From NCBI GenBank assembly GCA_036279355.1, contig DASUJH010000034.1, positions 1-64,000 on the forward strand: a stretch of DNA of 64,000 nucleotides. Reading direction: 5' to 3'. The stretch comes from Gemmatimonadales bacterium (GTDB lineage Bacteria > Gemmatimonadota > Gemmatimonadetes > Gemmatimonadales > GWC2-71-9). Position numbers and translations under genes: made by a program. How positions within the stretch are numbered: the first letter of the stretch is position 1; each line of letters starts with the position of its first letter. The notes below the pieces were generated by a model that was given only the letters and a program-made list of their open reading frames with translations, ran no database searches and was not told the DNA's origin. Below, in pieces: positions 3,412 through 58,403 of this stretch.

Positions 3412-4216
3412 ACTGCCAGCCGATCGCGGCACCGCCGCCGGGGGCCCGGAGAAACGTCGGCGGGCGGATGCCGAATACGCGCCATCGCCCACGCACCAGC
3501 TTGGCCGACGTGAACCCCACCAGCGCGCCGAAGCCGGTGTCGCTGAGCCAGTGCTTGTCGTCGTTGATCCGCGAATAGACCACACCGGTGGCCACCGTGT
3601 AGAGGCCCACGGTCGCCCAGGTGCGGTGGATGTCGTCGGCGAGCGAGGTGGCGAGCGCGAACGCCACCGCTACGTGGCCCGAGGGCAGCGCGGGGTCGTG
3701 CGACAGCGGATCGAAGTCGAACGCGCCGACGCCGCCCGCCGGACGCTCTCGGCCGAGGATTTCCTTGATCGCGAGCGTCGAGCCGCCTGCCAGGCCCACC
3801 GACGCCACCGCGCGTGCACCGGTATGGACGAGCGCCGGGCGATGCGCCACGAGGCCCGTCACGATAAGCGCCGCGCTCACCGGTGCGAACACCTCGACCT
3901 GTCCCACGTGCCGGAATGCCGACGCGATGTGGTTCGACGTTTCCGAGCGGTGCTCCTGCGCGGAGCGCTCGACCGGCTCGTCGATCAGCATGAGCGTGGA
4001 CGTGGCCGCGACGGCGCCGGCGGCCTCGTACCAGCGGATGGCGTGGACCGGCGCCGGGGCAATATCCGCTGGCGTGGCGACCGCCGGGGCGATGGCCGCC
4101 GGCGTGGCGACCGCCGGGGCGATAGCCGCCGGCGCTGCCTGCGCGCGGAGCGGCGTGAGCGCCGCCGAGCAAAGCAGCCCGGCGGTCCCGATTCGCCACG
4201 AGACTTCAGCGAGCAT
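3401..4216 (-). CDS. PAP2-family membrane phosphatase
   Basis: 271-residue phosphatidic-acid-phosphatase-2 (PAP2) protein. Its three catalytic blocks are present in order: KEILGRERP, PSGH with surrounding hydrophobics, and SRINDDKHWLSD (SR-x5-H-x3-D). Such enzymes dephosphorylate undecaprenyl pyrophosphate or phosphatidates on the outer face of the inner membrane. An N-terminal signal or anchor is followed by an Ala/Pro-rich linker made of 10-residue repeats (DNA repeat 4053-4142). The start overlaps the stop of the upstream metF-fusion gene by 11 bases, so translation is probably coupled, though a functional link to methionine is not evident. The gene also overlaps convergent dgkA at its 3' end. 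Confidence 0.88.
   Translation of the reverse strand: MLAEVSWRIGTAGLLCSAALTPLRAQAAPAAIAPAVATPAAIAPAVATPADIAPAPVHAIRWYEAAGAVAATSTLMLIDEPVERSAQEHRSETSNHIASAFRHVGQVEVFAPVSAALIVTGLVAHRPALVHTGARAVASVGLAGGSTLAIKEILGRERPAGGVGAFDFDPLSHDPALPSGHVAVAFALATSLADDIHRTWATVGLYTVATGVVYSRINDDKHWLSDTGFGALVGFTSAKLVRGRWRVFGIRPPTFLRAPGGGAAIGWQFTQ
4053..4142. repeat. Tandem 30-bp repeat inside the PAP2 gene
   Basis: Three head-to-tail units (4053-4082, 4083-4112, 4113-4142). The first two are nearly identical and the third diverges after base 22. They encode a repeating 10-residue Ala/Pro/Val/Thr linker between the signal segment and the catalytic part. Unit length is a multiple of three, so copy-number change would keep the frame. 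Confidence 0.85.
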
Positions 4217-6116
4217 CGGCGCCCGCCGGGGCGCTCGCCGCCGACCCGGCGAGGCTGTCCGCGAGCACCTCGAGCGCCACCGGCACCCGCCCCAGCGGCG
4301 CCGCCACCTGCACGCCGTGCACGCGGCTCCGCACCGCCGCGATCATGTCCCGCGCGATGCACACGCCCTCGGCGAGCGCGGCCTCCTTCCCGTTGGCGCT
4401 CGCTCGCCGCATCCGGTCCAGCACCGCCTGCGGCACACTCACCCCCGGCACCTCGTTGGCGAGAAACTCCGCGTTCCGGAGCGACACCAGCGGCCAGATG
4501 CCCGCCAGCACCGGGATCCGGTACTGCTCGACGTCGCGCAGAAACCGGTCGAGCTGCTCCAGGTCGAACACCGGCTGGGTGATCGCCACTTCGGCTCCGG
4601 CCTCGACCTTCCAGGCAAAGCGCCGGAGCTCGCGCTCGCGGTCGGCCGCGGTGGGGTTGGCGCCGACGGCGATCAGAAACCGCGTCCTGTCGCCCAGCGC
4701 ATTGCCGCCCGGGTCGAGCCCGTGATTGAGCCGCGAGACCAGGTTCGTGAGTCCGATCGAATCGATGTCGAACACCGCGGTGGCATCGGGATAGGGGCCC
4801 ATCTTGGGTGGGTCGCCCGTCACGATGAGCAGGTTGTTGAGCCCCGCCGCCGCGGCGCCGAGGAGGTCCGAGAGCATGCCGAGAAGGTTGCGGTCGCGGC
4901 AGGCGTAGTGCACCACCGCCTCGATCCCGACCTCGCGCTGGATCATGAGGCCCGAGAGGAGCGCCCCCATCCTGCTCTGCGCCCGCGGGCCGTCGGGCAC
5001 GTTCACCGCGTCCACGCCCGCCGCCTTGAGCTGGCGGCACTGCTCGAACATGGGCTGCGGCCGCACGCCTTTGGGCGGCACGATCTCGACCGTCGTGATG
5101 AACCCGCCGTTGGCGAGCTTGGCCGCGAGCCGGGAGCGCTCCGCCATCGGGACCGGTGGGGTGGCGCTGGCCGGCACCGGCGCCGCACTCGTGGCGTCCA
5201 TTGCTGTCAGGGTGCCGGTGGCGGTCACGCCGAGGTGCCGGGGCGAGACGCTCCGCACGAACTTGGCTACCTCGCGGATGTGCTCGGGCGTCGTCCCGCA
5301 ACACCCGCCCACGAAGCGCGCGCCCGCCTCCACGATCCACTTGGCGTACGTCCCCATGTATTCGGGGCTCGCCATGTAGATCTTTCGGTCCTCGATCTCG
5401 CGCGGCAAGCCCGCGTTGGGCTGCGCGCTGATCGGGAGCGTGATGCTCTTGGCGAGCTTCTCCACCGCCTCGAGCACGCCCGCCGGCCCCACCGAACAGT
5501 TGACGCCGACGGCGTCCACGCCCATCGCGGCAATCCGCGGTCCGAACACCGTGGGGTCCGTGCCGTAGTGCGTCTTTCCATCGGTGCCGATCGTCATCTG
5601 CGCGATGATCGGGAGGTCCGACACCTCGCGCACCGCGAGCACCGCGGCGCCAAGCTCCTTCACGTCGCTGAACGTCTCGAGGATGAAGCCGTGCACGCCG
5701 CCCTCGACGAGCCCCGCCGCCTGGCGGCGGAACGCTGCTTTCGCCTCGGCCACCGACGTTTCGCCGTAGGGCTCGATCCGCACACCGAGCGGCCCGATCG
5801 CCCCGGCCACGGCGGCGCGCTCGCCCGCCGCTTCGCGCGCGAGCGCCGCGGCCGCCGCGTTGATCCGCTCGGTGTCCGCCGCGAGCCCGTAGTGCGCCAG
5901 CTTGAGCGGGTTCGCGCCGAATGTGTTGGTCTCCAGCAACTCGGCTCCCGCGCGCACGTAGTCGCGGTGGATCTCGCGCACGAGATCCGGCTGCCGGAGG
6001 CTCAGCTCGTCGTAGCAGACGTTGAGGAAGACGCCGCGCCCATAGAGCATCGTGCCCATGGCGCCGTCCACCACGTGGACCCGGTTGTCGGTGAGGAGAT
6101 CGCGGATGGTTGGCAT
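4206..6116 (-). CDS. Homocysteine S-methyltransferase / methylenetetrahydrofolate reductase fusion
   Basis: 636-residue two-domain enzyme of the YitJ type. Residues about 1-300 form a betaine-homocysteine-methyltransferase-like barrel: VDGAMGTMLYGRG at the N-terminus, GVNCSVGP, and the zinc-binding pair in [12 protein letters not shown]. Residues about 340-620 form a MetF domain (TTVEIVPPKG, DAVNVPDGPRA, LIVTGDPPK), which reduces 5,10-methylene-THF to 5-methyl-THF with FAD. The start at ATG 6116 (MPTIRDLL) fits the family better than a longer frame. It lies 11 bases downstream of metH, so one transcript would make both the methyl donor and the methyltransferase. The methyl donor for the N-terminal domain is unknown. 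Confidence 0.92.
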   Translation of the reverse strand: MPTIRDLLTDNRVHVVDGAMGTMLYGRGVFLNVCYDELSLRQPDLVREIHRDYVRAGAELLETNTFGANPLKLAHYGLAADTERINAAAAALAREAAGERAAVAGAIGPLGVRIEPYGETSVAEAKAAFRRQAAGLVEGGVHGFILETFSDVKELGAAVLAVREVSDLPIIAQMTIGTDGKTHYGTDPTVFGPRIAAMGVDAVGVNCSVGPAGVLEAVEKLAKSITLPISAQPNAGLPREIEDRKIYMASPEYMGTYAKWIVEAGARFVGGCCGTTPEHIREVAKFVRSVSPRHLGVTATGTLTAMDATSAAPVPASATPPVPMAERSRLAAKLANGGFITTVEIVPPKGVRPQPMFEQCRQLKAAGVDAVNVPDGPRAQSRMGALLSGLMIQREVGIEAVVHYACRDRNLLGMLSDLLGAAAAGLNNLLIVTGDPPKMGPYPDATAVFDIDSIGLTNLVSRLNHGLDPGGNALGDRTRFLIAVGANPTAADRERELRRFAWKVEAGAEVAITQPVFDLEQLDRFLRDVEQYRIPVLAGIWPLVSLRNAEFLANEVPGVSVPQAVLDRMRRASANGKEAALAEGVCIARDMIAAVRSRVHGVQVAAPLGRVPVALEVLADSLAGSAASAPAGADAR

Positions 6117-6127
6117 GGTTGCGCCCG

Positions 6128-9916
<3,789 letters not shown>

Positions 9917-9960: not shown

Positions 9961-9969
9961 AACGGCGGC

Positions 9970-10019
9970 GTTTTAGCGGTTGTTTAACGTGGCCGCAAGC
10001 TGCCTGCAAATCGCCACGA
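9970..10019 (-). promoter_or_regulatory. SAM-II riboswitch in the metH leader
   Basis: The minus strand carries the SAM-II hallmarks in order. A perfect 6-bp P1 stem (CGTGGC at 10018-10013 with GCCACG at 9993-9988) is directly followed on its 5' arm by GATTTG and preceded on its 3' arm by GCTTGCG. TTAAACAA comes next, then GCTAAAA at 9977-9971. From memory of the family, GAUUUG, GCUUGC-GCCAC, UUAAA and GCUAAA are its conserved blocks. SAM binding shuts down methionine-synthesis genes, which fits the downstream metH and metF genes. The leader would start near 10036 if the promoter below is right. I could not run a covariance-model search. Confidence 0.85.
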
Positions 10020-10042
10020 AAATCGGATTGTCTTCCATCTGC

Positions 10043-10072
10043 AAACTAGCACCTCCGGCCGCGTGCGTTCAA
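10043..10072 (-). promoter_or_regulatory. Putative promoter of the metH operon
   Basis: On the minus strand TTGAAC (10072-10067), an 18-base gap and TAGTTT (10048-10043) resemble a sigma-70 -35/-10 pair. Transcription would begin about 15 bases before the riboswitch P1 stem, which is the expected layout. Confidence 0.45.
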
Positions 10073-57185: not shown

Positions 57186-57582
57186 AAGGGCGCGGTGGCA
57201 AAGGATGACGCAAGCTAGGGAGAAACCGGGTGGTCGGCTAGACTGCCAGTTGCAGTTTTCCGGGCCCTCGTGCGGAGTGCGACGCACGGGTGCTGCAACA
57301 TCCGTTCGGACGCCGAGCCAATGAGCCGGGCGACATGAGTTTACGTCCAATGGCACCACTCTCGCCCCTCCGGGTCCGCACGGTCAACGGGACCGTGAAG
57401 GATCACCACGACCGCCCGATAAGAGCACACCCGGAGCGATCCGGGGCCGCAAAACTAGAGGTCTCATCCTCGGCGTCCGCCAAGCGCGGCGCTGCAGGCG
57501 GGGGTGAGATAGCTCGGTGCCGAAGGTGGATCAAGGCGAGCGCCGCGGGTTCGTGCCAGCCTTGTCGGGTGTGGGAGGACGT
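57186..57582. other. 397-bp intergenic region between acs and the STAS gene
   Basis: Divergent control region. It contains a perfect 7-bp stem with 5-base loop (57379-57385 and 57391-57397) and a few less GC-rich patches (around 57240 and 57450), but no promoter pair I can defend. No small gene is convincing here. Confidence 0.4.
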
Positions 57583-58034: not shown

Positions 58035-58403
58035 ATGAATGATGGCAAGGGGCGCCGGCGCGTGCTGATCGTCGAGGACGAGCCGGCCCTGCGGCTCAGC
58101 TACGAGCGTTACTTCACCCCCAGATACGACCTCGTCTTCGCGAGCACGGGTGCGGAGGCCATGGCCCGGCTCGAAGAGCGGGCGCCGGACGTGGCCGTGC
58201 TCGACATGCGTCTGCCCGACACCGACGGGGTCGAGCTCCTGCGCCGGATCCGCCATTCCCGGCCCGAGCTGCCGGTCATCATCACCACCGCCTATATGAG
58301 CATCGAGCCGCAGCTCAAGGTGCTCGACCTCCCGCACTCCGGTTACATCGTTAAACCGTTCCGCCTCGACGAGCTCGGCGCGCGCATCGATGCCGTCCTC
58401 TGA
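58035..58403 (+). CDS. Single-domain response regulator
   Basis: 122 residues, receiver domain only. Acidic pocket VEDEP, phosphate acceptor Asp57 (VAVLDMRLPDTDG), ITTAYMS and the lysine in YIVKPFRLDE. No output domain, so it acts by protein contacts (CheY/Spo0F-like) or in a phosphorelay. ATG 58035 follows TAAGG; a TTG at 58026 is less likely. Its 3' end overlaps ccmA by 14 bases, so it is co-translated with the cytochrome c maturation genes, which is an unusual partner. Confidence 0.9.
   Translation: MNDGKGRRRVLIVEDEPALRLSYERYFTPRYDLVFASTGAEAMARLEERAPDVAVLDMRLPDTDGVELLRRIRHSRPELPVIITTAYMSIEPQLKVLDLPHSGYIVKPFRLDELGARIDAVL

Follow-up and report, generated by a model that had tools for sequence, protein, structure and literature searches.

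Background

In Bacillus subtilis, the yitJ gene, which encodes a fusion of homocysteine S-methyltransferase and methylenetetrahydrofolate reductase (BHMT-MTHFR), is under the control of a SAM-I (S-box) terminator switch. SAM-II (SAM_alpha, RF00521; Corbino et al. 2005) is an unrelated aptamer class that combines a set of conserved blocks with a P1 stem and a pseudoknot, lies upstream of methionine genes and is arranged as an OFF switch with a terminator after the aptamer; such terminators were noted already when the class was discovered (PMC1273637). For the SAM-II riboswitch of metZ in the alphaproteobacterium Sinorhizobium meliloti, Rho-independent termination was predicted to depend on SAM and to yield a short RNA, and this RNA rises under high SAM, while some other SAM-II RNAs act on translation (PMC9373788).

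Here we describe a SAM-II riboswitch in front of metH in a stretch of 64,000 nucleotides from a Gemmatimonadales bacterium (contig DASUJH010000034.1; hereafter the window). It shares the aptamer, the methionine genes and the terminator arrangement with the RNAs of Corbino et al. (2005), but it belongs to the phylum Gemmatimonadota, its P2b helix has only about 3 bp, and its terminator complements the CUAAA strand of the aptamer and not mainly the 3' strand of P2b. Compared with S. meliloti, where metZ is the gene concerned, the leader precedes metH and a BHMT-MTHFR gene. The likeness to yitJ is that a SAM-sensing terminator switch would again stand before a BHMT-MTHFR gene, although SAM-I riboswitches were not found in this genome.

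Results

A search of the whole window with the Rfam model RF00521 gave a match on the minus strand at 10027-9953 (47.4 bits, gathering cut-off 36, E 1.5e-7), which spans the full model (positions 1-79) and is the only one in the 3.25-Mb genome (97.5% complete). The original prediction of a full set of SAM-II blocks with a perfect 6-bp P1 agrees with this result: the blocks GAUUUG, CUUGC, GUUAAA, CAA and GCUAAA are all intact, and in the Infernal alignment the P1 strands CGUGGC (10013-10018) and GCCACG (9988-9993) form six of six pairs. The P2b pseudoknot, assigned by complementarity, pairs GGC in the P1 loop (10002-10004) with GCC (9967-9969) and is thus limited to 3 bp in the window. Scoring P2b by the longest complementary run, the first test tried, gave no significant covariation; it was replaced by an anchored permutation test, the second tried, in which pairing across the phylum exceeded that of permuted partners (p 0.002 for the sum). 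The SAM-contacting 3' core strand of the aptamer, GCUAAAACG, lies at 9969-9977. The related long-loop SAM-II model, RF01726, reached 25.1 bits in the window, under its cut-off of 44, and a search of the genome for SAH riboswitches gave no match; as the control for that search gave none either, this says little about their absence. We conclude that the metH leader is a genuine SAM-II riboswitch, predicted to bind SAM. Positions 9970-10072, to which the element had been assigned, take in the promoter through the end of the aptamer core, but the expression platform (9969-9925) falls outside them.

The aptamer is followed on the same strand by metH (6128-9916), which encodes a cobalamin-dependent methionine synthase with the Pfam domains Met_synt_B12, S-methyl_trans, Pterin_bind and B12-binding; the ATG at 9916 agrees with the start positions in relatives, and a GTG at 9886 is also possible. 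Next comes the YitJ-like BHMT-MTHFR fusion (ORF as listed at 4206-6164, minus strand; Pfam S-methyl_trans and MTHFR), such that the metH and metF genes seen downstream in the original prediction are metH and this fusion. Its true start is probably the ATG just past the metH stop codon, and it is likely part of the same operon as metH. Upstream of the leader there is a divergent protein kinase gene. The promoter that had been proposed just upstream, TTGAAC - 18 nt - TAGTTT (10043-10072, minus strand), is a possible one as read from the sequence: in 129 related leaders, -10-like hexamers are concentrated 28-34 nt upstream of GAUUUG, but the match to the sigma-70 consensus is only 7 of 12 positions and a promoter scan reported none at its threshold. 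The nearest named relatives of MetH, at 75, 70 and 69% identity, come from Gemmatimonadales, Gemmatimonadetes and Gemmatimonadota MAGs, and all four named Gemmatimonadota genomes searched carry SAM-II, in keeping with the phylum that had been suggested for the host.

Between the aptamer and the gene there is a predicted intrinsic terminator, UGCCCGGGGCC-GUUUU-GGCUCCGGGCA, at 9961-9935 on the minus strand with a weak U-tract, UUUCGCUUUG, at 9934-9925. Its stem has 11 bp (-23.4 kcal/mol) and not the 10 bp given in the original prediction, which was right about the hairpin and the weak tail. Among 131 SAM-II loci cut out from Gemmatimonadota, a terminator-like hairpin scoring 20 or more begins no further than 13 nt from CUAAA in 110, and the median score is 27.2 compared with 14.4 in dinucleotide shuffles; the hairpin in the window scores 31.9 (99th percentile of its shuffles, 32.5). 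In 19 closely related leaders, 20 cells in the stem are changed on both sides, a number reached by none of 500 shuffles. The stem has therefore been turned over with compensation, which argues that selection acts on the hairpin structure itself. Its loop is better conserved than its stem.

The loop of the terminator with flanking stem bases of the 3' arm, CGUUUUGGC (9951-9943), is complementary to the core strand GCUAAAACG (9977-9969) over 9 bp with one G-U pair, and the duplex is more stable than in shuffles (-11.4 and -7.9 kcal/mol, respectively; z -2.6). This pairing is kept in 95% of cells in the 19 related leaders and falls to about 53% or less if slid by at least one base; these leaders were picked for loops resembling that of the window, and the value therefore applies to that group and does not test how common the pairing is. 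Within the group the complementarity is conserved and shows no covariation, because the aptamer strand is invariant. Among the 131 loci, with no choice based on the loop, TTTRGY occurs in the terminator region of 37 (shuffle mean 8.4, maximum 15), and the pairs flanking it covary when compared with permuted partners (p 0.009 and 0.0005), where the two-sided changes amount to few events in relatives that are not independent. The flanking pairs seen include ACG/CGU, GAG/UUC, AAG/CUU and AGG/CUU, as well as CAG/CUG in Acidobacteriota. We regard the pairing of GCUAAAACG with CGUUUUGGC as a candidate antiterminator that looks new; in the texts searched we found no description of an antiterminator formed from the CUAAA strand. 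An alternative that uses the 3' strand of P1, GCGGCCACG with CGGGGCCGU, was noted by eye.

Stepwise folding of the window leader gave the antiterminator a probability of 0.81-0.95 as the first part of the 3' arm appears, and the terminator takes over once most of that arm is out. With the aptamer strand blocked, as SAM binding would do, the probability of the terminator is 0.80-1.0 from the first GGC on. These calculations use nearest-neighbour energies without pseudoknots or kinetics and show the competition between the two folds and their order. At equilibrium the terminator (-23.4) is favoured over the antiterminator hairpin (-17.2), and a switch between them must therefore be kinetic or leaky. 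In the mechanism that we propose, GCUAAAACG would, without SAM, pair with CGUUUUGGC as soon as the latter emerges and so keep the terminator's loop and a portion of its stem engaged, while with SAM bound GCUAAAACG would be locked in the aptamer and the terminator would fold at once. We consider the chances of this particular switch to be about even.

The coupling step was compared between groups by the duplex z of the core strand with the terminator. The mean is -1.35 in the Gemmatimonadota metH-type leaders, -1.9 in Acidobacteriota, -2.5 in Nitrospirota and -0.14 in Alphaproteobacteria; the comparison is limited by common descent and by small groups (6 and 4 loci). The complementarity is thus seen again in related metH leaders as well as in Acidobacteriota and Nitrospirota and is absent from the sampled Alphaproteobacteria. 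In the Gemmatimonadota metH group the excess is carried by 44% of the loci, and therefore this coupling is not universal there. In Gemmatimonadota leaders before genes other than metH it is the 5' strand of P2b that has an excess (mean z -0.9, with 27% of loci beyond -1.5), e.g. in L026, L172, L179 and L196 among others, where the P2b 5' strand GCCGCC complements GGCGGC in the 5' arm of the terminator.

With attenuation kept, the coupling might instead bypass the CUAAA strand, in that P1 or P2b does the switching, as complementarity of P2b hints for Alphaproteobacteria, and the CGUUUUGGC loop is simply inherited. The alphaproteobacterial 3' strand of P2b is indeed a better complement of the terminator (z -1.0) than the core strand is, and both the missing covariation of the antiterminator in the close-family alignment and the greater stability of the terminator in the window fit such a coupling. 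However, the same P2b strand has no excess in the Gemmatimonadota metH leaders (z +0.33), the loop is conserved more strongly than any other part of a hairpin with a turned-over stem, and other families and phyla retain its complement although the flanks have changed. We consider switching by P1 or P2b less likely than the core-strand switch, but a real possibility.

Control of translation, where the pseudoknot hides the ribosome-binding site as it does in the Sargasso Sea type, is known for some SAM-II RNAs (PMC9373788), and some Gemmatimonadota leaders (e.g. L008, L016 and L115) lack an adjacent terminator and place the start codon 8 nt downstream of CUAAA. In the window, however, the P2b strand AACGCC contains nothing like a Shine-Dalgarno sequence, and the start codon, probably at 9916, lies approximately 50 nt downstream, past the hairpin. 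We rejected this mode for the window because a ribosome-binding site is lacking near the pseudoknot, and its probability here is low. In L008, L016, L115 and similar leaders the gene that starts after CUAAA is of the BHMT-MTHFR type, and an ordinary Shine-Dalgarno sequence would not fit outside the aptamer; having no hairpin and a start codon this close, these few leaders fit translational control and are likely subject to it.

With one genome taken per species, incomplete MAGs among them, scores reach the RF00521 cut-off in 221 of the 395 Gemmatimonadota genomes sampled, 262 match at E 0.001 or better, and a match is present in 92 of 138 genera. The same search passed 78/190 genomes of Alphaproteobacteria, 11/149 of Acidobacteriota, 5/198 of Bacteroidota and 3/100 of Nitrospirota, where each comparison group takes its identity from the named locus chosen as its centre. 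SAM-II is common in Gemmatimonadota. We found no paper that joins the two (subscription journals were mostly outside the search, and the Rfam listing may include such sequences), and to this extent the original prediction of a riboswitch outside its best-known groups holds for the literature; a single case is, however, not remarkable because the class is widespread in the phylum. Sporadic horizontal transfer is not supported as the source of SAM-II in the phylum because, by genus counts, two thirds of the genera have a match. That the metH leader is a chance or decayed match without function, as its 47 bits compared with up to 88 bits in alphaproteobacterial examples might suggest, is extremely improbable given that every conserved position is intact, that dozens of relatives have the aptamer at the same place before the same gene, and that none of 14 control genomes matches the model.

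At 93 of the 131 Gemmatimonadota loci, the gene that follows falls into a single large cluster of metH and BHMT-MTHFR genes, and the others include metX, metY, homoserine dehydrogenase, a threonine-synthase-like gene and panB. Six leaders (L002, L010, L022, L025, L029 and L112) have the SAM-II aptamer and a terminator directly before panB, encoding ketopantoate hydroxymethyltransferase; in L112, panB is followed by threonine-synthase-like and GHMP-kinase-like ORFs. To our knowledge, no SAM switch had been linked with pantothenate and threonine genes. Elsewhere SAM-II precedes genes for threonine-synthase-like PLP enzymes (L125, L135, L137, L143 and L149), homoserine dehydrogenase (L200 and L201) and metX-like alpha/beta hydrolases (L175 and L193), the hydrolase being fused to homoserine dehydrogenase in L175. 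The aptamer is also present before a TonB-dependent receptor ORF (L184) and before RimK-like ATP-grasp ORFs (L204 and the plus strand of L002), which are possible transport or ligase targets. The window itself has a second riboswitch, a c-di-GMP-I match (RF01051) at 57414-57524 on the plus strand with 47.0 bits (cut-off 35); the first long ORF after it on the plus strand, starting at 58390, resembles, as judged from its sequence, an ABC-type ATPase (heme-exporter CcmA-like).

Discussion

From the aptamer, the genes and the hairpin with its covariation in relatives, all read from sequence, we infer that this SAM-II riboswitch most likely binds SAM and represses metH and BHMT-MTHFR at high SAM by premature transcription termination, i.e. 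that it acts as a SAM-OFF attenuator. The original prediction had raised control of transcription as something unusual for the class. Attenuation is the best reading of the locus, but it is not unusual: terminators after SAM-II aptamers have been described since the discovery of the class (PMC1273637) and SAM-dependent termination was predicted, with support from RNA levels, for metZ (PMC9373788), and therefore the main surprise of that prediction falls away.

The group comparison would extend the proposed switch beyond this leader. In Gemmatimonadota, Acidobacteriota and Nitrospirota, GCUAAA might, in RNA without SAM, pair with the loop and 3' arm of the terminator, and a second coupling, between the pseudoknot 5' strand and the 5' arm of the terminator, might operate in leaders before other genes; we would give this scheme an equal chance of being right or wrong. 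Taken together, the couplings suggest at least two or three different connections between the same aptamer and its terminators.

A riboswitch class that has been treated as mainly alphaproteobacterial now extends into Gemmatimonadota, where the share of sampled genomes with SAM-II is larger than in Alphaproteobacteria. If the core-strand coupling is true, ligand binding and antitermination would compete for the same bases.
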